Assembly (NCBI GenBank): GCA_902728285.1
Contig: CACVBU010000512.1
Span: 186,001 to 250,000 of the forward strand
DNA from: Clytia hemisphaerica
Lineage: Eukaryota > Cnidaria > Hydrozoa > Leptothecata > Clytiidae
Length of the DNA: 64,000 nucleotides
Direction of reading: 5' to 3'
The notes beneath the pieces were generated by a model. It worked only from the letters and a program-made list of their open reading frames with translations. It had not been told where the DNA came from and did not search any database. Of this stretch, positions 9,274 to 57,795 are shown piece after piece (the stretch's first letter is position 1; each line of letters begins with the position of its first letter). A program made the position numbers and the translations under genes.

Positions 9274-9760
9274 TTAAAACTGAAACCAATTTTTGCAGGA
9301 TGGACATTCTAACCAATCCGTAGTGTTATCTGAATGATAGGAAGCAAAACACTTTGCGCATTGATTCTCTTCAACTGTAGTCGAAACGTTGTGGTCACAG
9401 ATCAAGCCACCAGCCTTGCTGTACCATTGAGTGTAATACGGCTCCTCATCAGCAGCAGTTTTGTAAAATGCAATTGAGGAATCACCACGTTGGTTGACTG
9501 ACCTCTCAAAATTGTGAATCTTTAGGGTTTCGGGGATGGGAGAAGCGGCTTCTATACCTTCCGGCTCCGTTATTTCCGACTCACTCGGCATGTAGACAGT
9601 GATCACAGATGGAACAAACTCCGAGGCAGCTTCGGCAAATTCTTTCGGGTTGTAAATCACAGCCTTGTTTGATTTCACCTTCCGAAAAACGACATTTTTT
9701 AACGTACCTCCAACCCCATCCATCGGTCCTTTTCCGTGAAAAATCTTTTTGTCATCTAAT
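9274..9760 (-). pseudogene. Transposon-type domain with Cys-rich finger, fused to DIRS recombinase piece
   Basis: The open frame 9879-9274 starts with a DIRS recombinase segment, then from about residue 40 changes to a different family. Its core reads HGKGPMDGVGGTLKNVVFRKV, close to the (C/D)DGIGGTVKR block of an uncharacterised transposon-associated protein family in invertebrate genomes. It ends with a finger-like pattern: CAKCFASY, then DWLECPSCKNWF just before the stop, like the Cys-x2-Cys...W-x-x-C pattern of PHD-type fingers in such proteins. The frame is open for about 160 codons after the junction. The family assignment is from memory of the motif. Whether the fusion is a nested insertion or an expressed chimera cannot be told from sequence alone. 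Confidence 0.5.
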
Positions 9761-10160
9761 CCTGCAGAGCGACGGGAATTGTCAGTGGCCAACTTACGAA
9801 TAAAGCCTAAAACATCTGACACATCCCATACAAATGTATAACGTGGTAGTGGTGGTCTAAGATTGAAAATACCTGTCATTAATGCATTAATCCTAGAACT
9901 ATGACCAACTGGTTTTCCTTCAAATGGATTGTGCTATGCTGAAATTGCCGATATGTAGGTGCATATATAGTGTTGTATTGCAAGCCTTTATGAAACAATT
10001 CCGCCAAGAAGTCAAGAATGAATATTTTATAGAGCAAGACACTGGATCAACCTTCCGTTGACGAGCCCAGCTAGACCATTTACCCCAGGCCGACTCATAA
10101 TGAGAGATTGAACTCTTCCTTCTGGCATTTGAAATAAGGTTGGCTGCTTTGCCTGAAATT
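9761..10160 (-). pseudogene. DIRS tyrosine recombinase, N-terminal part only
   Basis: The frame ending at 9920 reads SISHYESAWGKWSSWARQR and VDPVSCSIKY, the core-binding N-domain signature of DIRS/Crypton-type recombinases. After a frameshift at about 9930 the next frame reads PFEGKPVGH and GIFNLRPPLPRYTFVWDV, also typical of DIRS recombinases just before the catalytic domain. The catalytic R...HxxR...Y half is absent: sequence of another transposon family follows in frame from about 9760. The element therefore could not integrate on its own. Confidence 0.75.
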
Positions 10161-10599
10161 CCCTCTGCTTCCAGTGTTTTCCTGAAATTCGCCAGGCCGC
10201 TAGAGTTAGTGTCCCTTCTCGTGTCAGAGGATGACACTCTCCTTGAGGATTTGTCAACATAGTTCTGAACGGTTGGATCAGTAACGGTCTCTGGACGCAC
10301 ATTTACATCAGTTTTGTATACCATGACTGACCTTGCCACACCGGGGCTATGAGAATCATTTCTGCCTGTTCCTGAGCTACCTTGTTTAGCACTTGGCCAA
10401 TCAGGCAAAACGGAGGAAAAGCATACATCAGATGACCTCCCCAGGCCATTTGAAAGGCATCTACCCTGATACAAAACGGGTCTGGTTTCCACGAAACATA
10501 CTGATGAAGTTGATGCAAAGAGATCTACTTGTGGATAACCTAGCCTCCTTGTGATCTGTCTGAAAACTTCTTGGTCTAACTTCCACTCGCTGGAGTCCT

Positions 10600-10960
10600 T
10601 TACATTTCTTGACTCCCAATCTGCTGTCTTGTTTAGCTTTCCAGGGAGGTATTCTATAGTAATTTTGATCCCCCTGGACCGTAGATAATCCCACATCTCC
10701 TGACTCAATTATAGCAACACCTTGTTTTGGGTACCCCCCCTATCTTCACTATTTAGGATAGAGCTGTGGTGTTGTCCATCTGAAGATGGATACACTGTAC
10801 CTTTGAAGGGGCCCGTGTAAATGTTTTTATTGCTAACAGAGCTGCTTTCAATTCTAGAATGTTTATATGCAGTCCACTCTCTTCCATTGACCATGGCCCT
10901 CTTGTTTGCTTCCCCTGGCAATCTACTCACCAGCCTTTCTTGGATGCATCTGTAGACATG
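10600..10960 (-). pseudogene. DIRS RNase H remnant
   Basis: After the thumb, the minus strand reads STDASKKGW (first catalytic Asp context). Later, in shifted frames, it shows a diverged HxxxLELxA-type segment and an LRSRGIKITIEYLPGKLN block followed by TADWESR, the usual end of a DIRS/Ty3 RNase H. Frames switch at least once inside the domain (around 10710-10930), so it is inactive. Confidence 0.75.
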
Positions 10961-12091
10961 ACCAAGTCTGGATTTTTCATTAACAGAGACTTTCCATTTG
11001 ACAACTTTAGGTTCTCCTTCCACCACTCTAACTCTAGTCTCACCTTCTCCGACAGGGTTATCTCGGACTGGTAAGAACCTCTTATCAAAGCTTTTATCTG
11101 GCATCTTTGAATCTTTCTGTAATGCAGTGGGGCCGCCAACACTGCTACCGCTGATGATGTCAACCTCCCCAGGAGTTTGGTTAGGTCCATCACACTCACT
11201 TTTGTCTGGGACAGAATCTGTTCGCACTGGCTGATGATTTTCTCTATTTTGTCCGATGGCAAAGTCAACTCCATCTTCACTGAATTCACTGTCACACCTA
11301 AGAACTCCAACTCCTGGCATGGTTCTAGATGAGATTTCTGAATGTTTATGATGAAACTTAGAGCTGAAGGAGAAATATCAAGGAGTCTCTTGCCATCAGA
11401 ATCTCCTCCCGAGAACTCCCCATAACCAAAATGTCGTCCAGATAGTCCAGATAGAACCGAATATTTAGTCTTCTCAAAATAGTTATAGGAACTTTCATTA
11501 GTTTGGTGAATAACCTGGGTGCTGGACCAAGACCGAACGAAACACATACAGAGGAACTGATATAACTTGCCTTTCCATTCGAACCTGACAAATCTCTTGT
11601 ATTGTTTCCCTAATGCGACTGAAAAGTAAGGGTCCTTCAGATCTAACTTGATCATCAAATCTCCTGGACATAATCTCCTTGTCCTTCTTCTTCACCGTAA
11701 AAAGAGTACTCAAGACCTGACCTGGAGATGGAACAGTCTCTTCTATGGCCCCTTTCTTCAATAGGCTCTCCACCTCTAGATCTATAATCATCTCCTCCTC
11801 TTTGTTCATTCTCAATGGACGAGGAGGCATTTTCTGAACTGGAGTTTCCCAGTGAAAAAAAGGAATCTTGTAACCCTGAATAAGGTCTAGAATAGTCGGA
11901 TCGTTTGTCACCTTTTCCCAGTTTCTTAAGAAATACTTCAGCCTGCCCGCTAATTCCAAGACCGAATGTGTTGAACCCCCAAAAAGACCTTTCAAAACTG
12001 GATGAACATGGATAAAACTTTCGGTTGAAACCACTTGAAACAGAGGAAATTTTAAAATTCTTATCACTGCCACGGTTGGTGAATCCGTCAA
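10927..12091 (-). pseudogene. DIRS reverse transcriptase, frameshifted
   Basis: Frame 12091-11498 gives the entry region (GRLKYFLRNWEKVTNDP, DLIQGYKIPF). Frame 11658 onward gives the palm (KLDLKDPYFSV, RFVRFEWKGKLYQF). A shift to frame 11591-11358 gives GPAPRLFTKLMK and the catalytic box YLDDILVMGS with both aspartates present. A shift back gives the thumb region (ELEFLGVTVNS, LTKLLGRLTSS, LELEWWKENL). The residues needed for catalysis are still legible, but the frames are broken at about 11590 and 11360, so no continuous enzyme can be made. The order and spacing match DIRS RTs. Confidence 0.85.
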
Positions 12092-12109
12092 TGTTGGGAG
12101 AGCTGTTAG

Positions 12110-12392
12110 AGCTCCCTTGATTGCCTTGATAGGAACGGAAATTTTTGAATAACCAACTGTATCATCCTCGCCCTCTTCCTTGCGGTCTCTGAGGAGGAGG
12201 GCTCTTCGGAGAGCGAGGGCTCTTAGATGTTGACATTGAATCCTTCAGTAACTGTTTGGTCTTCGATTTAGTCTTTTGGGTTTTCACCACCTTCTCTTCA
12301 AACGTTGACCCAAAAAGATAACACTTATCATTTATCAATAGATCTTTCCAATCTTTGAGCAGCAGCTTCGCTTTCTTTTTGTCATTGAACAT
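12110..12392 (-). pseudogene. DIRS gag-like remnant
   Basis: The frame 12392-12162 starts MFNDKKKAKLLLKDWKDLL and contains a YLFGSTFEEKV block, a Lys/Ser/Thr-rich linker, a Pro-rich stretch and a terminal RGRGRG. The following bases, in another frame, continue with an Asn/Gly/Ser-rich tail (KNFRSYQGNQGSSNSS). A nucleic-acid-binding basic tail after an LFG motif is the pattern of DIRS gag C-termini. The N-terminal part of gag is missing. Confidence 0.55.
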
Positions 12393-13078: not shown

Positions 13079-13466
13079 AAATATTCAGTCGTCAATTCGT
13101 TCTTTGATTGGTTTTGGTTACTTTAATGGGATTAGTTTTCATGGAGATTAAATTTCAGGGTTGATCTCATCTGTGAACCTTTAATATTTCCTGGGGATTT
13201 GATTTCGCAGAACCAGATGACTCTAATTGCTAGTCGAAATTTCAAACTAATTTGCAAAGTGTCAAAACAAGTTTAATGAAAAACCCTCCTTATCCTGCAG
13301 AAAAATGAGGGGTCACTTAACTTTAACCTTTATTAGTTTTTCAGATATATTCCATTTTGAAAACATCCAGACGCGAAATACGGATGTCTAAATTTTTCAA
13401 TAATATATCTGAAAAAATTCTGTAAAAAAGTCCGTAAAAAATCCAAGCTCCTAAATAGTCTAACTA

Positions 13467-13684
13467 CCGTGAGATTGGGTAATTTGCATCAGTTGAGGCT
13501 AACATGCATAGCCCTCAAATGAAAGACCTGGCTGGTCATTAAAATACAACTACGCAGCTCCGCTCGCAGCTCTACTCTACCATTTTTGTTTTGATTTAAC
13601 TTTGTATTTTAATGACCAGCCAGGCCTTTCATTTGAGGGCTATACATGTTAGCCTCCACTGATGCAAGTTACCCAATCTCACGG
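13467..13684. mobile_element. TA-flanked MITE with CCGTGAGATTGGG ends
   Basis: The left end is TA then CCGTGAGATTGGGTAA; the right end is its complement followed by TA. The arms run about 85 bp, through an AGGCTAACATG block, a CCCTCAAATGAAAG block and a TGGTCATTAAAATAC block, around a 45-bp centre. A TA duplication is typical of IS630-Tc1-mariner and some other superfamilies. The subterminal GCATCAGTGGAGGCTAACATG-type block (here with one mismatch) is shared with the element at 41.7-42.1 kb and a fragment at 39.27-39.29 kb. Confidence 0.85.
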
Positions 13685-13784
13685 TATGTGGTTGGTAGAC
13701 GATATCATCCACCAGGATGCAAGTTAAATTTTTCAATCTGCGGAACTAGACAGGGTTCGGTTATTATCAGTTAGGGTTAGCAGG

Positions 13785-32395: not shown

Positions 32396-34086
32396 TTAAA
32401 TTTCAACGATACATTTGATGAACAAAGAATCGTCCGCTAAATATTCTTTCTTCTCCAAGTCCTCGTGAACAATAAAATCATCGAACCCAACAATAATGGA
32501 TTTATCGTCTTTCTGAGGTCGCGAAATACCGCTGTGTTTCACTGACAAGTCTCTTACGCGGACAAGATCTAATCGCTTATTGGCATCTTGCGCTTGGCTG
32601 ATCAATTGGAAAGTATAACACGGTTTGATGGGCCACGGTAGCACAGGGTCATATTCACCAGCCATAATTCGGACATACACTGCAAGACATTTATCGAACC
32701 CTTTTCCTCGCCCATTTAAGTAAGCCCACATGGACAAACGATATCCATTTGGACCAGTTACAAAAGGTTCTGATCTACTTGGGTCATCGTAGCTATTGGA
32801 CTGAATTCTCTTCAGCTTTTTGGTGAAGGCATTTATTCTCCACACATATTCTGCGCGTTGAGGACCGATGGTTCTCGATAGAAGACACGGATTTGATCCA
32901 TTACTCGAGATACTGTCCTCAGAATTATTCCTCAATAACTTCTTAGTCGGTGAAAGAATTTCGTTATGTTTGACGATAGCTTTCCCTGAAGATGTACCAT
33001 TCTCAGTAAGCCGTTTGGAGTCCATTTTATTTCTCATGCTTTGTATTTGATATCGCAACTCATCAATCAAAGAAGCTTGGAATTCCGTCTTAGCTTCCAG
33101 AGTGTTTTTCAATTTATCAATTTGCTCATCTTTCTTGATCGTTTCTTTGGAATGTGAATCGTTGAGTATTTGAATATCTCGCGTCAGATCTTCCAGTTTA
33201 CTTGACAACTTGGCGTTCAAACTTCGTTGCTCGTCCATATCATTTTGCATGGTCTTGAGGAGGTCACCTTGCTCTTTAATGATCTTCAGAGCAAAAGAGA
33301 GGTCGTGCTCCTCATCGTTGGATATGATCCCTTTGTTCTTGTAACCCTGACGAAGAAAGGATGACAAGCAAGGTTTTATTCAGGTTTTAAAATAAAAACT
33401 ACAACCATAGCGTTCTAAATCTATGACTTAGAACGCCACGACTACAACTCGCATAACTCGCATAAGATTTGTACAATGCATCCTCTAGCCTCTTTTAATG
33501 ACCATAAAAGGGAAGTCACTTTTAAAAATGAGGGAAAACTAGTTCTGAGAATTTATCTGTGACTTATGATACAAATTGATGAAATTCGTATTCAGCAATG
33601 ACCACGAACTGCTACGAACACGAACATGAAGTTTACTCACCAAGTCATCATCAGGGCTAGCCAACAATTTCTTCTTTTCATCTGCCATCTCACGAATGAT
33701 TGGATGACCACCAACCTGTCAAAACAAAAACACCACGTATCAAAAATCAAATAAGTTCAACGTTCACATGGGTTGATATTTCACTTCATCAGAAAGAGAA
33801 ATTATCAGAGCAAGCAATCAGAAAGTAAACTGTTCACGCAGGAATTCGTCATTACATATTTTTCTTTAAAAAGATGTTTGTGAAACTAAGAGGATTTCAA
33901 ACAAAATTTCAAGCGCCATGATCAGAGAAAGTACGGGTCGGTTGAGATCTGATAATAAGTCAGTGAGCTAAACTTTTGTAACTTGTGCACTGGAAATTCT
34001 GATTGCAATAACAAAAGATATAAGCCGCTTACCTCGTCATTATTCAATACAAAGTAATTACTTTTCTTTGATAAAACTTTCTCCAT
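32396..34086 (-). CDS. TRAF-C (MATH) domain protein with coiled coil, no RING
   Basis: Three exons on the minus strand join in frame: 34086-34033, 33715-33641 and 33346-32396, giving 359 residues. Donors and acceptors are GT-AG. An in-frame TAG three codons before the ATG at 34086 supports the start. Residues about 56-150 form a heptad-like coiled coil (LKIIKEQGDLLKTMQNDMDE). About 210-357 is a TRAF-C domain: YVWRINAFTKKL, GYRLSMWAYLNGRGKGFDKC, VRIMAGEYDPVLPWPI, and the terminal DDSLFIKCIVEI. TRAF-C domains trimerise with the coiled coil and bind receptor tails in TNFR/TLR signalling. Here the usual RING and zinc fingers are absent, as in TRAF1-like adaptors, so an adaptor without ligase activity is inferred. 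An ATG at 33367 inside intron 2 is also in frame, allowing a shorter form. Confidence 0.88.
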
Positions 34087-39030: not shown

Positions 39031-39756
39031 TTCAAATATTTTTCAGTCATTTTTCTCGTAGAAGCATTAATTGGTGACTGGGAATAAGGTGAATGTCGTG
39101 TGGTTACTTTGGTCTTAGCCTTTCTTCACATATTTCTACTTTTTGAACTGATGAAATTTGTAAGTGAGACTTTCCCTTTTTTTTTGAACTTTTTTAACGG
39201 CATTGCAGTGAGGGTCCCACCCCTTACGGCCAAAGCCATTAAAAAAAAGAAAATCGTTTGTTGACGGGCCCTTAGCCTCCACTGATGCAAGTTATGCAAT
39301 CTCGCACAGTACCGTCTGGTTTACAGAGTACACGGCAAATTGGTCAATAATCAATGTAGCTGGAACCTCGATATTCCAGGATTAGAAAAAGCTATATTTG
39401 TTATCTTTTTTCTTTAAAGAATCAACAAGCCATCAACATTGATAAATGGCACACATTTACACAGAAACTTTTAAAATTATCTGCCATTATGACTCGTTCC
39501 GAAATAAACCAATCGGGTTATGTATCGGAATTCCTATGGGAGTTCTTTCCTAAATTTGTAAAATAGCTAAGTCGGCAAGACAACTTTTCCCGGTGGAAAA
39601 ACAGAACTGCTGTCATTTGTTTTTTATTTAACCGAATATTTAAATTTGAGCTCAAAAATACTTAAACAAATAAGTTAATAATATTCAATATACTATTTGT
39701 ATCTGTCAGAAAATTAACACTTACAAAACGACATTGCACAAAATAGGGTGGAAACT

Positions 39757-41305: not shown

Positions 41306-41689
41306 AGATAGAGTTTGGATTCAAATTTTTCACTTACTTCTAACTTTTTTGAAAATCCTTTTCAACCAACGGTTAGACAACTTTTCACATGTTCTTCGTG
41401 TTTGTTTTGATTTTTTATTTGAGGCGATCTTCTTAGAATAAAAAACTTTCGAAGCGAGCGGTACTAGTGCCCAGTTCCCGACCGACGTACCAGTCTGCGA
41501 CCGATCGTTAAAAAGAGAAAATCAGTGCTCTACTTACAGGTAAGGTCATATTAATTGATCAGGATGATAAAAAAACTCATAAGCTTTCCCGTATTAAATT
41601 TATTTACACTCGTTCTTTTGTTTTAAAATAGCTCACTTACATTTCCCTTCGGCATGTTTTTTCAGAATTTTTCTTCAAGTCGCCACTGT

Positions 41690-42089
41690 GAAAAAGGGTA
41701 ACTTGCATCAGTGGAGGCTAACATGCATATACCCCAATTCACAGACTTGTCTGGTCATGGTTTTCTCACCTTGTATATGAAAATCAAATTTAAGAAAACA
41801 TGTTATTAATTGAGGAAAGATTATTATAATTACCATGAAAAACGGGGGAGAGTGTGCAGAGGAGAGCAGGCGAAAGACATTTACAATCACGCTCTTCGAA
41901 ATTTGTGACATGTTGTCGTGGGAAAAGAAAAGTGATTCTGATCAAAGGTACGTTTTTCTATTGTCAAGTAATTTTGTTATAATGTTTCCATGTCAACACT
42001 TTTAAGAGAAGTAATACTGCTCTAGTTGGTCTGTGAATTGGGGTATACGCATGTTAGCCTCCACTGATGCAAGTTACCCTTTTTCACGG
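41690..42089. mobile_element. MITE with CTGTGAAAAAGGG ends, inserted in a repeat
   Basis: The left arm reads CTGTGAAAAAGGGTAACTTG then CATCAGTGGAGGCTAACATG; the right arm is the near complement ending CCCTTTTTCACGG. The flanks CAAGTCGCCA and TTTTTTCTAAAG are contiguous in the unfilled repeat copy at 37.27 kb, giving a paralogous empty site. The subterminal block is shared with the 13.47 kb MITE. Confidence 0.85.
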
Positions 42090-42570
42090 TTTTTTTCTAA
42101 AGTTTGTTTTTGTTTTGTTTTGAAAGTGGCGGTCTATGGAGAGTCTTCATTTGATAAAAACGCGGGAATTTTTTATGCCTGTTTTTTTCTCTTCGCGTCT
42201 GGAATTTTTTGATCGCAATGTAGAGTCTTCTTTTTCATTTTTTGAGTTTGGTCGGTCGCAGACTGGACGTCAAATTTCGAAGCTGATTGCATCAACTTTT
42301 TTATCAATATTTCACACGAAGGAAACTGTATCGAGCTGATTTTTATAGAAATGCTTTCTAACATACTCATTGTTTTGGACAAGTATTTTTTGGCGTGGGA
42401 GTTGAAGCGTTTTTTCTTACGAAGCTTTTTTGTCCACAGGTAGCCATTTTTTATTTTTTTTGAAAAATCCGGCTTTTTCGTGTGCTTCCGTGCAAAGTTG
42501 GATCTTTCGGATTCTACTCGTTTTTTTTTCTAAAACCTTTTTTACACAGTACGGGAAATAGGTCAAGGCA

Positions 42571-42789: not shown

Positions 42790-45092
42790 AATCAGGGGGG
42801 GTTGAGATCAATGTTTTGCTATTCTCAGAGAATAATTTACTGTCAAGTTCAAGTTTCTAGAATAACATGTGAATGAAGAAGCATACCTATACTATTGACA
42901 TCGCGTTTGTGTTTGGCTGAATTGCTTTCTGTTGCATTAACTGTATATATCCTTGTTCCTTGTATGAAAACCATCAGAACCATCAACAGCAGAATTTGAT
43001 TTGAATTTCCGAATTTCTGAATGGAAAATTGGAAATCATAACAAACATGGCGGCACCTAGACTAGCGATGAACTGTCAATTCGACTCTATAGACTAGATA
43101 CTGCAACTCGCGCGAAAAAGCGTTGTTTTCATTAAATAGCTTATCTGGCACCCGATGTAGAAATTTTCTTCCGACACGCTAAAGCTCTGAAGGTCGGGAA
43201 AATTTTCAACATCTGGAAGAAATACATTACGGAATTTCGCCTGACCGCGTAATTTTTTAGAAAAATGGGCCCGAGTGCAATTTGGACAGGGAAGGTGTCA
43301 TGGCCGACAAAATTTTGGTCAGAAAAAAATTCAAAAGGTTTCACGAAATAAATTCAAATACAAAACTTTTTGGAGAGGGAATCATGCAAAATATTATCAT
43401 TCTTTTCACAAGGAGGGCATGTAGAAATACTCAAATAAGTATTTTTCCTTCTTTAAACTGATCACAGAAGCAAAAACAAAATAGAAATAACATTGTACAC
43501 AAAAAGGCTTGAAAGAAGAGAAATCATCATCTATAATAACACTAAAAGAAAAACTGAAGCTATAGAAAATGAATACTAACCCTCAATGAACACTTTTGTG
43601 AAGTTTGATAAAGATTTTATCCAAAAAAACTTCAGTTCTGGAACACTGAAGTCGGTTTGTCGGTTGTCGGACAACAGTTATATTTGGAGGACGGTCTAAG
43701 ATAGATAACAACATGAAAGTTACTGATAAAAGCCTAAACCCATAGGAACATACCTGCTTTAGTTTCTTTGGTCTTTGAATGGTATAAAATTTGAGAAAGT
43801 GCAGAAAAAATCAGCCATCAAAACAAACAAAAACAAAGTTATGATTATCAACTTTTCTGTGGTAGAAACACATTTTTTTGGGTTGGTGCACATACAGAAA
43901 TTACACTGGATACTAAAACTAATATTCAGGGAGTGATAAGTACAGTTAAACTACAAAAAATTCATCAAAAGAAACCAAAAACAACCATACAGCACACATT
44001 TCTGAAAATTACATCAGTCATGTTGATTGTAATTTTTGCCGACATACTCATGACGTGGTAACTAACGACAGTGATTTGACGGTCTTTTTGAGGCGCCAGA
44101 TCTCAAAAAAACAATTTTTGAGCGTTCAGCACGGCCCCGAAAATGAGGGCTAAACTTATGTCGGCACATCAATGGATGACTACTATTTCTCTCCGATGGT
44201 ATATTGGCCCGCTCCTTTAGAGCTTTAGCGTGGGCGGCCGCCAATACGCCATCGGAATATCAGATAATTAAATAGCATATTTCCACGTCTGGTACCAGAT
44301 AAAAGAAAATCTGTAGTTAACCGTATGTATGGGGATTCTGTAGTTAACCGTATGCATGGTGGATTTTTGCGCAAACTCGCAAACTAATCAAGTATTTACT
44401 ATGCGAAAGGTAGGGTTTTCGAAAATTACATTGGCTCAAATTGCGTGTTAATAAACGGTTTTAATTTAATAAAATTTAACGCAAGGATTATATTGCGTTA
44501 TAATAAGGTCGGTGGTTATAAGTCTTACTTAAGTGTGATGATGAGATAAGAGCGGTGGATTTTGGCGTTTTTTGTCGAACTCCAGTTGACGTTCTCTATG
44601 ATTGGATTTTCATCGAATAAGAGAGCGTATAGAATAGCAGAGAACGTTGAATTAGAGAGCTTCAACTGAATCTGCTTACTATCAATCTCAGTCATTTTGT
44701 TCGTTGTTTATGTTTCTTATAGCGCTCACGAAAGATTGTTCCAAGGTTTAAAAAATCAAAAACGGTGCAAGTGGCCTTAGGTACAAGATTGGATTAAAAC
44801 CACTTTATGCTTTTGCTTTAATGTATCATCAACTAACAGATTAATGCTCGCCCAAATTGCGTTTGATTTTGGTGCGATTGTTTTGCTTTAGCCAATCACT
44901 GCATTCAAAAGCTCGTTTAACTTCATCTATCTAATGAATATATTTCTTATGGAATATAATTTTGATCTGTGTTTGCTCCTTATGGTTGGCATACACAGGT
45001 CCCTAATTATCTTAAAAATTACAGAAGCAGCCACCGACCTAAAATTTGCAAATATCTGTTCTGATTTGCTAGCTGGAAGTATTTCCACGAAA
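42790..45092. other. Gene-free interval
   Basis: No exon could be supported. A hairpin-prone inverted repeat lies at about 44190-44258 (GGGCCAATATACCATCGG-like arm and its mirror CCGATGGCGTATTGG around a GC-rich loop). A short direct repeat, TCTGTAGTTAACCGTATG, occurs at 44310 and 44337. The remainder is unassigned. Confidence 0.5.
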
Positions 45093-45096
45093 TTAA

Positions 45097-45720
45097 GAAC
45101 AGCTCCTCGTTTTCCAGGGGAGAAATTTTTACTTCAGAACAGTTGTATTTTTTCCAGCTAAGAGGTAAAAAAACTTTCAGAACAGATACGAAATTACCAG
45201 GCGATTGATTTTACGCGAGTTAACTGTTCTTATCTACCAGGGCTGACAAAATCTTATAAGAACAGATCGCTAAATTCCAGCTTGACATTGAAGGACTTTT
45301 AAGAACAGAAACTTAATTTCCAGCTAACAGTTCGAACAGATCCACAATTTCCAGATGTTTTGTAGAACAGATGGAGAATTTTCAGCTGCTCTCCAGGCAA
45401 CCACATTCAGGACTTTTTTGAAATTCCCTCAGAACAGATAAGAAATTCTTAGACACGTTATTTATAAATATAAGATATCAAACTATTTTTTCATAAGAAC
45501 AGAACATATTTTTCCAGCTGGTCCCAATCTTCAGTAGAACAGATCATATTTTTCCAGCTGGTCCCAATCTCCAGTAGAACAGAAAATATTTTTCCAGCTG
45601 GTCCCAATCTTCAGTAGAACAGACCACTTTTTTCCAGCAGACTTTTTTCTTTAGTTCGCTAAGAACAGACCGCCATATCCAGCTGGAACGTACCTTCAGA
45701 ACAGATATTTTGAAGTTCCC
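45097..45720 (+). repeat. Array of about 14 bipartite motifs GAACAG-N10-TCCAGCT
   Basis: GAACAG followed by a spacer and TCCAGC(T) occurs with GAACAG starting at about 45097, 45137, 45180, 45260, 45303, 45334, 45365, 45432, 45497, 45537, 45578, 45617 and 45663, with partial units near 45223 and 45699. The spacer is exactly 10 nt in nearly all (9 in the 45663 unit) and its sequence varies. Centre spacing is 30-67 bp, often near 40. Units at 45497, 45537 and 45578 also share TGGTCCCAATCTTCAGT and look like a recent 40-bp tandem expansion; elsewhere the DNA between motifs is unrelated. All units point the same way. The halves contain AGAACA (a steroid-receptor half-site word) and CAGCTG (an E-box), but neither assignment is proven. 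Confidence 0.85.
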
Positions 45721-45725
45721 CTTCG

Positions 45726-46037
45726 GTGGATGCTTTCGAAATTATTGATTTGCATGACGTAATCTTTTATATAGAGACAAAAAAGAATACAAGACACCTT
45801 TCCACAGACACGTACGCAAACCTGGATGATGTCTTGACATTGAAAAATGTAGAGTGTGCCTTATTACTTATGGTCATGGGTCTGGCTTTGACGAGAAGGG
45901 CATGTCTATTAGTGAGGACAAGGAAATCAGGATATTCTTCCGCATCAGGTGTTGTTCAGAAGCATGTCCAGCTTAATGGAAAGCTTAACAAAAAGTACGA
46001 AGAGAAAAAGTCAAAAACCTTTTTCTGCTACGCATGA
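45726..46037 (+). other. Unassigned ORF just after the motif array
   Basis: About 100 codons are open immediately 3' of the array, ending at TGA 46035-46037. The frame has no ATG at its beginning; the first in-frame ATG is at about 45870. It includes a hydrophobic stretch (CALLLMVMGLAL) and a basic Lys-rich C-terminus. I see no known domain and no clear splice sites. It could be an exon controlled by the array or chance. Confidence 0.25.
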
Positions 46038-46738: not shown

Positions 46739-48293
46739 TTAACGTTTATTTAGGGTGTAGATCATAAAAGAAAATGCACCCAATGAAACAATAGCTCTAA
46801 CTGAATGTAATTTTCCCCAATGTTTCAAATTTTCTGTGATCCAACCTTCACCTAGAAAAGATAAAATGAAAGAAGAGAAATATGAAATCATCGATACTCT
46901 TTGTAAATTATTTCACTTATTTTTTTGTACTTTAAACTTGAAAACCTCTGCGAATCGAATGTCTCCTTTACACGAACAGTTTACCCCCCCCCCTTACCGT
47001 TCGAGATAAGGAAACATTCGAGTTGCAGAGGTTTTCAAGTTTACTCAGTCAAGTTTAAATTAACTCTCACGCTAAGTTGAAAGAAAAAAATAGTTCAATA
47101 TAGTTATGGAGAGTTCGAATTATGGAGACATTGAATACCCTAATTTTTATGTTCTCGAGGAACCAAAAATATTGTTCCAACGAATTTTTTCGAGTTAACC
47201 CTATTCGTACTAGGGGGCTTTTTCTGTTCGGAGGTCACATTAATGGTAATAGCTTCTGAAATAATAGAGCTTTTACCATGAAATTTTCTGTAAATTCCTA
47301 ACTTTTATTAGCTTCAAAAAAAATTTGACACCTAAAAATTTTCACACCTTGAGCATGATGACATTTCTGACAGTAAGGTGTCACAAAAATTGACACTGTT
47401 CCAATACAAATTTATTCTTTATGTCAAATATTTAGTTTAAACCCTAATTTATTGAATATTTAGGATAAAATAAGCATTTTAGACTCAGGCAACTTTCTTA
47501 GAGCCTTTGTTAGAATACAATAGCTATTTATAAGATCGAAGGAAATTTTCGGTTTCTGCTCACATTGGGCATGATGAGTGACGTCATCAAAAATATTTTT
47601 TGTCAAAAGTTACCTTATGTGACAAGGATCCTGTGTGCCAAATTTGATCCAAAAAGACCCATTTAATCTTACCTTTGACACTGATGCATTTTTCAGTTTC
47701 GATGAGTTGATTATTGAGAGGTCTGATGAAGATGAGTGTGAAGGGCAGCATGGACAACATCATGCACCCACATCCAAGCCAGTTCAATGCGTCTGCTGAA
47801 GTGTTTCGTAAACAAAAATAAGCTCCAAAAGCCGACGCACTCGACAGCAATGATAATTTACTCTGTATGAAAAAAAACATATAACGAAAGTCAAATGAAA
47901 ATTCTTTCAGATTATATTTGTATTAATAATGGTTCCACTGGAACCAGCTAATCTGAAATGAAGAAAACTATTTCTTCACCTAGTCTAAACAAGTTTCACA
48001 TTTATCACCTTTTTTGAGAGTTTTTCCTGCAATGTAAAATGAGTAGGATCCAATTCAATACAATCAGACAGGATCAGATAAGACGAAAAATATACCTGAA
48101 GTGAAGCAGCTCTCACAAAAGAAGGTTTCCACTGAATGATAGCAGTGGTTGGATCGTGTGTCATACGGGCAGGTTGTTCCACCAACGTCACGTACAACGC
48201 CCCACCAACAAACACACCGGAAAATATAGTGGCTGTTGTTTTTAGTAAATGACCAGTTGTTACTAAGTCTATATTCATGTTTATTTTGTTCAT
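46739..48293 (-). CDS. DUF1772 (anthrone-oxygenase-like) membrane protein, 3 exons
   Basis: Exons 48293-48096, 47862-47673 and 46851-46739 join in frame to 166 residues; all junctions are GT-AG with the phases matching (66 codons, 63 codons plus one base, 37 codons with stop). Hydrophobic segments lie at about 20-40 (TIFSGVFVGGALYVTL), 70-88, 95-112 (GCMMLSMLPFTLIFI) and 145-162 (AIVSLGAFSFMIYTL), the four-helix layout of DUF1772. Family signatures are FAGALY-like GVFVGGALY, the VEQPAR motif, an IPFTL-like LPFTLIFI..LNNQL and the final WGKLHSVRA. Bacterial and fungal relatives include noranthrone monooxygenases; animal members are uncharacterised, so function is open. The upstream frame to 48314 starts with TTG and is not needed. 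Confidence 0.85.
46934..47042. repeat. Near-perfect palindrome, 109 bp, in the DUF1772 gene's intron 2
   Basis: AAACTTGAAAACCTCTGC and GCAGAGGTTTTCAAGTTT face each other, with further pairing (CGAATGT / ACATTCG) around a 45-bp centre containing a C-run. It lies between exons 3 and 2 and would form a hairpin in the pre-mRNA. It may be a very small MITE. Confidence 0.75.
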
Positions 48294-48534: not shown

Positions 48535-49089
48535 CAGGGGGGGGGTCTTGCAATTACTCCTTGACACTATGTGGAGTAACTGCAATTTTGGACATTTTCT
48601 ACAGACACCACCACCTTGCAGTTATTCCATAGTGTACTAACTGATTTTACCCTCAAAATCGGTGTATACCACCCCCAAAAATGCCAAATTTGGCAATTTT
48701 TTCACTGAATTCCTCATTTTTGATACCATTTTACTGGGTACGTCTTATCAACGACCGTTGAAGAGTTAAATATCCAAGTTTGTTAAAATATCTTTCATGC
48801 CTTGATTGAAGAAATAATTTTGTGATGTTTTTTTTGACTTTTGAAAAAAATGTTTTGAATTTTTTTGCTTCCGGAATTTTTAAAAACCTGAAATTTTAAG
48901 TGAAAAATTGAAAAATTTGCTCACTTAGTACACCATATCCTACCAAAATCGACAATTTTGGGCTTAGGCACCACCCATGTTGCAGTTAGTCCACTGGTGG
49001 AGTAACTGTTTTCCAAAATTTTGGTTTATATACCACCACGGTAGTAATTGTCATAGTGTTTATATAATAACTGCATGACCCCCCCCCTG
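48535..49089. mobile_element. CAGGG...CCCTG element with 7-bp target duplication
   Basis: Left: GTTTGTA then CAGGGGGGGGGTCTTGCAAT. Right: AACTGCATGACCCCCCCCCT-type end then CTG and GTTTGTA. The 7-bp GTTTGTA is repeated exactly on both sides. The inside repeats TGCAGTTA-TCCA-type words (CTCCTTGACACTATGTGGAG, TTGCAGTTATTCCA, TTGCAGTTAGTCCA) in both orientations and has no transposase. CAGGG ends suggest hAT, but hAT duplicates 8 bp; P-like elements can give 7-8 bp. Confidence 0.8.
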
Positions 49090-52106: not shown

Positions 52107-52108
52107 TA

Positions 52109-52540
52109 CTTTAGGCGTAGAAACTTTCGCGAGCAGAAACTTTCGCGATTTTCGCGAATTTTGGCCCTTTTCGCGAAAGTAAATGTCTTTAAAAATTCTA
52201 GGAAGGGACATTCGCGAAAGTTTATGCTCGCGAAAAATTCTTGACAAAATAGAAAATCTGTAAAACTTCAAACTTTGAATAAATTGTAACTTTTATGGCA
52301 CTTTTTAGCCTGCTAAAAGACTAATAAGTCAAAGGACAAATGTTTCAAGCCAACCCAAGAAGTATTTGTGTCTCTAAGCCATTTTTTCATGTGAAAATTC
52401 TCAATTTTACGTCTTGATTCGCGAAAGTTTATGCTCGCGAAAAATATTTTTCCGTTAAATTCGCGAAAGTAAATGTCGTGAATTTCGCGATTTTTCGTCC
52501 TCGCGAAAGTTTCTGCTCGCGAAAGTTTGTACGCCTAAAG
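52109..52540. mobile_element. TA-flanked MITE built of TCGCGAAAGTTT subrepeats
   Basis: Left: TA then CTTTAGGCGTA and GAAACTTTCGCGAGC; right: GCTCGCGAAAGTTT then GTACGCCTAAAG and TA. About 15 copies of TTTCGCGA/TCGCGAAA words, often paired as CGCGAAAGTTTATGCTCGCG, fill both subterminal zones. Each is self-complementary at TCGCGA. The 432-bp element has no coding content. TA duplication places it with Tc1/mariner-like or related MITEs. Confidence 0.85.
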
Positions 52541-52559
52541 TAGCCAGAATATCAACAAA

Positions 52560-54866: not shown

Positions 54867-57795
54867 GGGTAGATCGTCAACTACCATTTTTAGCATGATG
54901 TCAAAATATTCAAAGTGTAATATTTTTTTGTGAAAATTTAATCTATTAAGACAATTTGCACAATTTTTAACCTCCTAGGTCAAACACAATTTTTAACCTC
55001 CTAGAACAAACACAATTTTTAACCTCCTAGGTCAAAAATCCAGCATTCCGCAGGGGGTCTTTGATTCGCACTAAAGCAAAAAATGAGTAAAAATGGCATT
55101 TTTTTGCCCATTTTAAGACAATGAAAGCCCAGTAAAGGGTCAAAATGGTTTCTAAATGGTGTCTTGTACTAATATTCAATATAAAAAGACAAAATAACCC
55201 CAGCGAGATCGCTCAATGTTTCAATTTCAGGCTAAAAAGGCTGATTTTCTCCGATTCTGGGTAGCATAATACATGAAAGCAGCATTTTTGAGGACCCACA
55301 ACTTTTAAACTTTTTAAGGTACACACTTGAAACTTTCAGTAATTAAACACTTCAGTGAAAGCTCCAGGAAAAATTTAACTTGAATTTTCAAAAATTTCCT
55401 ATAAATCCATAATGGCGTCCTAGAAATTGAGTTTTCGTGCTAAATGCAAATATTTCAAGCTAAAACTTGGTTTTCTCAGGCTAAAATCTCAAAAATGGTT
55501 TCAAATGGTGTCCTGAAATCTTTTGGTGTTGAAAGTATTCTGAAAATACTCTGGGAGAAACAAAATGGTTTGGGTCAGAAATTTACCCAAGTCTGCCATT
55601 ATGGTATTGCATTTCCCACTTAAACGCGATATTTAGAGTTAAAGTCTGATTTTCTCAGGCTAAAATCTCAAAAATGGTTTCAAATAGGGTCCTGAAATCT
55701 TTTGGTGTTGAAAGTATTCTGGATATACTCTGGGAGAACCAAAATGGTTTGGGTTTGAAATTTGCCTAAGTCTGCCAATATGGTATTGCTTTTCCTGCTA
55801 AAACGTGATATTTAGAGTTAAAGTCTAATTTTCTCAGGCTAAAATCTCAAAAATGGTTTCAAATAGGGTCCTGAAATCTTTAGGTGTTGAAAGTATTCTT
55901 GGAACAATCAAGGAAAATCACAGTGGTTCACAATGGACATATATATGCCAAAGTCTGCCATTATGAATTTTATTTCTTTAGGAAGAACACTCAAGCTTAC
56001 TCAAAACATTGTGTTTTAGAATGAAATACAATTCCATAATGGTAGACTTTGGCAAATTTCTGACCCAAACCATTTTGGTTTTCCCAGAGTATTTCCAGAA
56101 TACTTTCAGGACCCTATTTGAAACCACTTTTGAGATTTTAGCCTGAGAAAATTAGAGTTTAGCTCTAAATATTGCGTATTAGTGAGAAATGCAATTCCAT
56201 AATGGCGGACTTTGGCAAATTTCTAACCCAAACTATTTTGGTTCTGCCAGAGTATATCCAGAATACTTTCAACACCAAAAAATTTCAGGACACCATCAGG
56301 AGAAAGTTTTGGGAAAAAAACTTACCACTTTTCCAATCTTTCACACTTTTACAACTTTCCTCACCAAGACTTTGCAAATGTTTATAAAAATGGGGGATTT
56401 TCCATGGTTGCAACATGGTAGCACGAAATAGAAAATATTTCCATAATTTTTTTCAAGTAAAGGTGACCTTGGAAAATCGTAATTTATGCGCCCGCTATAA
56501 TTTATTTATTCATGAAATCGAAAGTGAAAGTTCTTTATTCGATTGCTATTGGAGGATGGTATGCATAATTTTCATTTGAGCCTGGAATAATTATGACATC
56601 ATAGATCCATTTTCCCACCAAAATACCAAAACTTTGCAAATCCAAATGATTGCTGTTGTTTGCTGGGAGAGTTTGGAAAAGTCCTATTTTTCACATCTTT
56701 ACAACTTTCAAGGATGGTTTTTTGAGATGGGAAAAATGGGAAGGTATTTTACAATTTTTACAAACTCTCCAATTTTTCTGGCCAAAACTTTGACTTTTTG
56801 ATTGGAAAAGTGGGAGAACTAGGAAATTTATGTACCAAAACTTTCTCCTGCATTTGAAACCATTTTCGAGATTTTAGCCTGAGAAAATTTGACTTTAACT
56901 CTAAATATCGCGTTTTAGTTGGAAATGCAATGCCATAATGGCATACTAGGGCAAATTTCTGACCCAAACCATTTAGATTCTCCCAGAGTATTTTCAGAAT
57001 ACTTTCAACACCAAAAAATTTCAGGACACCATTTGAAACCATTTTTGAGATTTTAGCCTGAGAAAATTTGACTTTAACTCTAAATATCGCATTTTAGTGG
57101 GAAATGCAATACAATAATGGCAGACTTGGGCAAATTTCTGACCCAAACCATTTTGATTCTCCCAGAGTATTTTCAGAATACTTCCAAAATCCAAACATTT
57201 CAGGACATCATTTGAAATCATTTTAGAGATTTTAGCCAAAGAAAACCAAGTTTTAACTTTTAGCTTGAAATATTGGCATTTAGCATGAAAACTCAATTTC
57301 TAGGGCGCCATTATGGATTTATAGGAAATTTTTGAAAACTCAAGTTTGATTTTTCCTGGAGCTTTCTCTGAAGTGTTTCATTGCTGAAAATTTCAAGTGT
57401 GCACCTTAAAAAGGTTAAAAGTTGTGGGTCCTCAAAAATGCTGCTTTCATGCATTTTGCTACCCAGAATCGAAGAAAATCAGCCTTTTTAGCCTGAAATT
57501 GAAACATTGAGCGATCTCGCTGGGATTATTTTGTTATTTTATGTTGAATATTAGTACAAGACACCATTTAGAAACCATTTTGACCCTTTCCTGGCCTTTT
57601 ATAGTCTTAAAATGGGCAAAAAATGCAATTTTTACTCATTTTTTGCTTTAGTGCGAATCAAAGACCCCCCTGGGGAATGCTGGATTTTTTACCTAGGAGG
57701 TTAAAAATTGCGCAAAATGTCTTACAATAGATTAAATTTTCACAAAAAAATATTACACTTTGAATTTTTTGACTTTGCCATTTGACGATCTACCC
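54867..57795. mobile_element. 2.9 kb foldback element, TA-flanked
   Basis: The ends are TA|GGGTAGATCGTCAA and TTGACGATCTACCC|TA. Left arm 54867-about 55970 and right arm about 56020-57795 are inverted copies of each other over most of their length (CAAAGTGTAATATTTTTTTG, AACCTCCTAGGTCAAAAATC, GCGATCTCGCTGGG-type blocks appear in both). The right arm carries an unmatched insert at about 56300-56760. Inside each arm a roughly 180-bp unit with AAATGGTTTCAAAT, GGTGTTGAAAGTATTCTG and AAAATGGTTTGGGT repeats three times or more. At left, a short tract AACCTCCTAG(G/A) is repeated three times. No transposase frame exists. A transcript would fold into a hairpin of more than 1 kb. Confidence 0.85.

Follow-up and report, generated by a model that had tools for sequence, protein, structure and literature searches.

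Between positions 45097 and 45720 of the window (the whole 64-kb stretch of DNA that was analysed) lies an array of a two-block motif, GAACAG-N10-TCCAGCT, and this locus raises the question of what kind of sequence holds so many copies of such a motif, nearly all on one strand. The initial annotation proposed a platform for a DNA-binding protein, a set of transposase sites, or a repeated RNA element; it missed the frame of inverted and direct repeats around the array, and once that frame is found, the striking array can be explained.

The array is real and its bipartite form is limited to one stretch of the window. About 14 same-strand copies had been announced, and indeed 14 forward GAACAG were counted within 45097-45720, with 27 forward and 17 reverse occurrences in the whole window. 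Eleven of the forward units lie within three mismatches of GAACAG-N10-TCCAGCT (six exact, three with one mismatch, one with two, and one with three). At the same tolerance, the rest of the window contained five other forward matches, each with three mismatches, and the reverse matches in the window numbered six (one with two mismatches and five with three), two of which were located inside the array. The three GAACAG beyond the 11 units were found at 45663 (with a 9-nt gap), at 45432 (with a decayed second block), and at 45699 (part of the right inverted repeat). Similarly, the pattern GAACAG-N(9-11)-CCAG occurred 11 times, always in the array, and on neither strand was it present in the remainder of the 64 kb; this is far above chance, as in 500 dinucleotide shuffles of the interval its mean number was 0.006 and its maximum 1. 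The distances between the 14 GAACAG are 40, 43, 80, 43, 31, 31, 67, 65, 40, 40, 40, 46, and 36 bp. Apart from the 40-bp units the spacing is irregular, as had been reported, although its range is 31-80 bp instead of 30-67 bp. The 80-bp spacing contains an apparent degraded unit near 45222 (recognised by eye) and an inverted GAACAG at 45224, the latter being an exception to the one-strand pattern.

Column statistics were calculated for 12 of the 14 units, those at 45537 and 45577 being excluded as recent tandem copies. As the units were chosen by GAACAG, the conservation of this block is circular, and independent evidence can come only from the second block and the flanks. The initial annotation held that both blocks persist around a free gap. 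Indeed, pairwise identity was 0.634 in the second block (+15..+20) and at chance level in the gap at +8..+11 (0.242, with 0.268 expected by composition), but other gap positions were conserved, namely A at +6 (10/12), T at +14 (9/12), and T at +15 (11/12). Conserved columns were also present upstream, with T at -3 in 10/12 and A at -1 in 11/12 units. As judged from these columns, the 10-nt gap is partly conserved and the motif is nearer to TnA-GAACAG-At-N6-TTtCCAGct.

Inverted and direct repeats around the array

A repeat search retrieved an imperfect inverted pair flanking the array, at 45014-45064 and 45696-45746, each arm of which ends inwardly in the array motif TCAGAACAGATATTT. The following features were delineated:

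45016-45021, no strand: candidate target site duplication AAATTA, left copy (direct repeat)
45022-45064, + strand: left terminal inverted repeat (TIR), CAGAAGCAGCCACCGA ... AAATATCTGTTCTGA, its inner end being the inverted first block of the array (inverted-repeat search)
45071-45077, - strand: inverted second block (AGCTGGA on the + strand), aligned, past a gap of 5 nt, with its counterpart at the right end
45097-45639, + strand: array of direct units, with GAACAG at 45097, 45137, 45180, 45260, 45303, 45334, 45365, 45432, 45497, 45537, 45577, and 45617
45496-45638, + strand: 40-bp tandem amplification of one unit and its linker (3.6 copies, 91% matches)
45663-45684, + strand: final internal unit, whose gap is 9 nt long and whose second block falls within the palindrome TCCAGCTGGA
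45696-45738, - strand: right terminal inverted repeat, with GAACAG at 45699 on the + strand
45739-45744, no strand: candidate target site duplication AAATTA, right copy (direct repeat)

Terminal inverted repeats are present as for a non-autonomous TIR DNA transposon. Their inner 15 nt, AAATATCTGTTCTGA, are identical in both ends and include the first block of the array, and past AAATATCTGTTCTGA the alignment continues, after a single gap of 5 nt, into AGCTGGA, which is the second block inverted. The inverted pair scored 18.5, a score reached by 0 of 1000 Markov pairs. Among 202 stretches of the same geometry elsewhere in the window, two scored higher (43.0 and 25.5), and inverted repeats are therefore common in this window. 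Without the motif bases, the outer repeat scored 11.5, a value that still includes the AAATTA bases and that was reached in 0 of 3000 cases in a fixed register and in 9 of 500 in any register. The variant outer segment 45022-45050 matched at 18 of 29 positions (chance 0.00075). With both the motif and the direct-repeat bases removed, matches were present at 13 of the first 16 positions and, over the outer 28, at 17, indicating an imperfect TIR. No second copy of the outer TIR occurred in the window within three mismatches, nor was any transposase, relative, or empty site encountered. A DNA fold of the element paired its ends (z -3.25, with 0 of 20 shuffles as low), as is expected from any inverted repeat.

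Directly outside CAGAAGCAGCCACCGA and CGAAAGCATCCACCGA, the sequence AAATTA forms a perfect direct repeat of 6 bp, located at 45016-45021 on the left and at 45739-45744 on the right. It is to be read as support and not as proof, because a direct repeat of at least 6 bp at any of 42 boundaries occurred in 3.2% of 20000 random registers; neither is it fully independent of the inverted match, because AAATT is nearly its own inverse. An element ending in CCACCGA was considered and dropped, as 45022/45738 was the only one among the boundaries 45000-45041 without slip to carry a direct repeat of more than 4 bp. Slips of one or two bases at these boundaries gave no direct repeat of at least 6 bp.

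Frames of at least 70 aa overlapping the element were restricted to 44892-45161 (89 aa) and 45714-46037 (107 aa). The latter is the reading frame noted earlier as directly following the array. Counted between stops, it spans 107 codons, and it opens within the right inverted repeat. The frame is unremarkable, as a Pfam search of it retrieved no families and the window contains 30 frames of at least 107 codons, compared with 4-17 in ten Markov resamples.

The array is probably the subterminal region of a short, MITE-like, non-autonomous TIR DNA transposon of 717 bp (45022-45738), in which no gene was recognised. This is the best reading because inverted repeats, a direct repeat outside them, and the lack of a recognised gene coincide with the inward reiteration of the motif at the inner end of the TIRs. 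Of the three options offered initially, transposase sites fit best, given the motif-ended inverted repeats that enclose the array and the 6-bp direct repeat outside; the two-block units are most likely subterminal sites for transposase binding.

Alternative explanations of the array

A first alternative, decidedly unlikely, is a locally grown and decaying minisatellite of about 40 bp without any mobile element, in which the inverted match at the edge would consist of one inverted unit plus chance. The 40-bp tandem units and the many spacings near 40-43 bp are in line with such an origin, and so are the linkers. These had been described as variable, and positions +24..+31 were indeed at chance level (0.259); yet a gapped comparison of 9 of the 13 linkers, which left out tandem copies and linkers shorter than 12 nt, found a similarity slightly higher than in shuffles, reached by 1 of 300 shuffles, or by 11 of 300 once the last 4 nt had been trimmed. 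Some of the pattern may hence represent ordinary minisatellite decay. However, a minisatellite accounts poorly for the conservation of the second block next to chance-level identity at +8..+11 and +24..+31, nor does it account for the 6-bp direct repeat at the edge of the outer repeat. Moreover, the outer repeat CAGAAGCAGCCACCGA / CGAAAGCATCCACCGA, which lacks the array motif, matches in the same register; with the motif and AAATTA bases removed and slips of up to two bases allowed, a match as good as this arose in 2 of 20000 pairs drawn at random from the window and in 3 of 20000 Markov pairs.

A second alternative, very unlikely, is a regulatory or chromatin platform of the host, consisting of many sites for a host DNA-binding protein and under selection for a role in the cell. 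The density of the sites, their nearly uniform strand, and their conserved blocks would suit such a platform, but the reading frame that follows is unremarkable and the transposon-like frame accounts for the site without a host function. Neither was the helical phase of the units clear, as none of the five periods tried was convincing (p about 0.04 at 10.25 bp and 0.52 at 10.5 bp).

A repeated RNA element is hardly credible: almost all units do lie on one strand, but when 10 of the 14 were folded one by one, their z values ranged from -1.74 to +1.02 and no structure was shared by all ten, although a weak 5-bp stem recurred in the three 40-bp copies, which are nearly identical. In addition, Rfam had no match in the window at its gathering scores.

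A search for other arrays, in collections that may omit the genome of the window and its very near relatives, retrieved stretches from viral contigs (34) and from prokaryote genomes (48), with different patterns. Viruses and prokaryotes are unsuitable for comparison with a window that, as judged from its TRAF-type MATH protein, looks animal. When units were counted in all 82 loci, the viral stretches contained at most two and the prokaryote ones at most six, the latter number in a single locus (L048) of 53% G+C. The TIR core AATATCTGTTCTGA was absent from all 82 loci, which are taken as chance or unrelated repeats.

Other elements and genes of the window

A second TIR element occurs at 52107-52542, with inverted arms starting with TACTTTAGGCGTA. 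Its own TIR motif, AAACTTTCGCGA, is present nine times in the ends and subterminal regions (six exact copies and three with two mismatches), and 15 more matches with at most two mismatches, the best with one, are scattered across the window. The architecture of 52107-52542 is the same as that of 45022-45738, with a different motif, and this parallel favours the transposon reading of the array. A possible TA duplication of this second element was seen by eye.

Further inverted structures were encountered. At 48535-49089, inverted ends CAGGGGGGGGGTC have GTTTGTA directly outside both, which is hAT-like by appearance. The region 54900-57773 is a large inverted structure, each arm of which contains 179-bp tandem repeats, and looks Foldback-like. 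The inverted repeats at 13465-13686, 39272-39294, and 41685-42090 have ends that share GGGTAA(C/T)TTGCATC or its continuation and possibly belong to one family. As for coding sequences, the minus strand carries a TRAF-type MATH domain protein at 32399-33379 (28 of 28 matched PDB sequences being named TRAF) and an anthrone oxygenase-like domain at 47590-47922 (Pfam PF08592, E 9.5e-08). Overlapping long reading frames on the minus strand at 9277-12244 are retrotransposon-like and, as judged by eye, DIRS-like; one of these frames, 9923-10708, had no Pfam match.

Proposed mechanism and comparison with known transposons

For the non-autonomous element at 45022-45738, we infer past movement and the binding of transposase to its units. 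Each two-block unit would repeat the recognition site that makes up the innermost part of both TIRs. The transposase, provided in trans, would contact the two ends via this inner site, and further transposase subunits may be recruited through the reiterated sites. The right-facing direct GAACAG sites number 13, of which 12 have a recognisable second block, and at the left end there are the TIR site and a single inverted second block. Such an asymmetry of sites could distinguish the two ends and increase affinity. The units may have been multiplied by local duplication, the 40-bp units looking like a recent round, with the linkers decaying and the sites being retained. The motif of the array represents a candidate recognition site by which the autonomous partner could be identified. 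Should further copies confirm the element, variation in the number of sites among them would provide a natural series on how subterminal sites affect MITE mobilisation. It is unlikely that the locus, with a subterminal array strongly biased to one side of an animal-like MITE and a duplication of 6 bp, reflects a transposase that reads two half-sites about 1.5 turns apart and tells the ends apart by site number, in which case it may belong to an undescribed group.

Among known transposons, the CACTA superfamily does not include the candidate element, whose termini are CAGAAG and CGAAAG, not CACTA, and adjoin a 6-bp direct repeat. CACTA elements are flanked by duplications of 2-3 bp. Nevertheless, the candidate element resembles the CACTA (En/Spm) element Tgmt* of soybean in having TIRs and an asymmetric, reiterated, two-part subterminal motif; Tgmt* is described with four copies at the left and 24 copies in 732 bp at the right, and its motif as made up of two sub-motifs, of which one occurs in every repeat and the other is more divergent (PMC2613891). 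Such CACTA subterminal repeats are recognised by TNPA-type proteins, according to the same account (PMC2613891). Unlike the present locus, with its 6-bp apparent duplication and units that are nearly all direct, Tgmt* is reported as a 20.5-kb element with genes, a 3-bp duplication, and repeats arranged as stem-loop pairs (PMC2613891).

In the hAT element Hermes, many subterminal repeats towards the tips, asymmetric between the ends, are described as bound by the BED domains of the transposase (PMC10368747), and in the candidate element the arrangement of subterminal repeats likewise differs between the ends. However, Hermes is described with the 4-mer AAG(T/C) as its motif and with a target site of 8 bp (PMC10368747), whereas the candidate element starts with CAG at its left end and CGA at its right end. 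The 6 bp found here differ from the 8-bp hAT duplication, although 5-7 bp are listed for named subgroups; the hAT6 and IS3EU groups have target site duplications of 6 bp, the length of the candidate duplication at this locus, hAT6 being placed by its transposase (PMC12730594).

Reiterated candidate transposase sites near the ends are a likeness to Galileo, of the P superfamily, for which extra transposase-binding sites within tandem repeats of the ends are described (PMC3688188). Similarly, the units share sequence with the TIR as in the foldback element Tetris, in which the tandem repeats share 37 bp with the terminal (outer TIR) domain (PMC4079207). Unlike the units found here, the repeats of Galileo and Tetris are described as located in long TIRs and as far longer, about 220 bp in Tetris (PMC3688188, PMC4079207), and the duplications reported for Tetris are 8-10 bp (PMC4079207). 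A Foldback/Galileo structure was also considered and set aside, the TIR at this locus being about 43 nt and the array lying outside the TIR and facing one end. Arrays of subterminal transposase sites are thus already known from other transposons, and the candidate element, as far as this comparison indicates, most likely fits that known arrangement.
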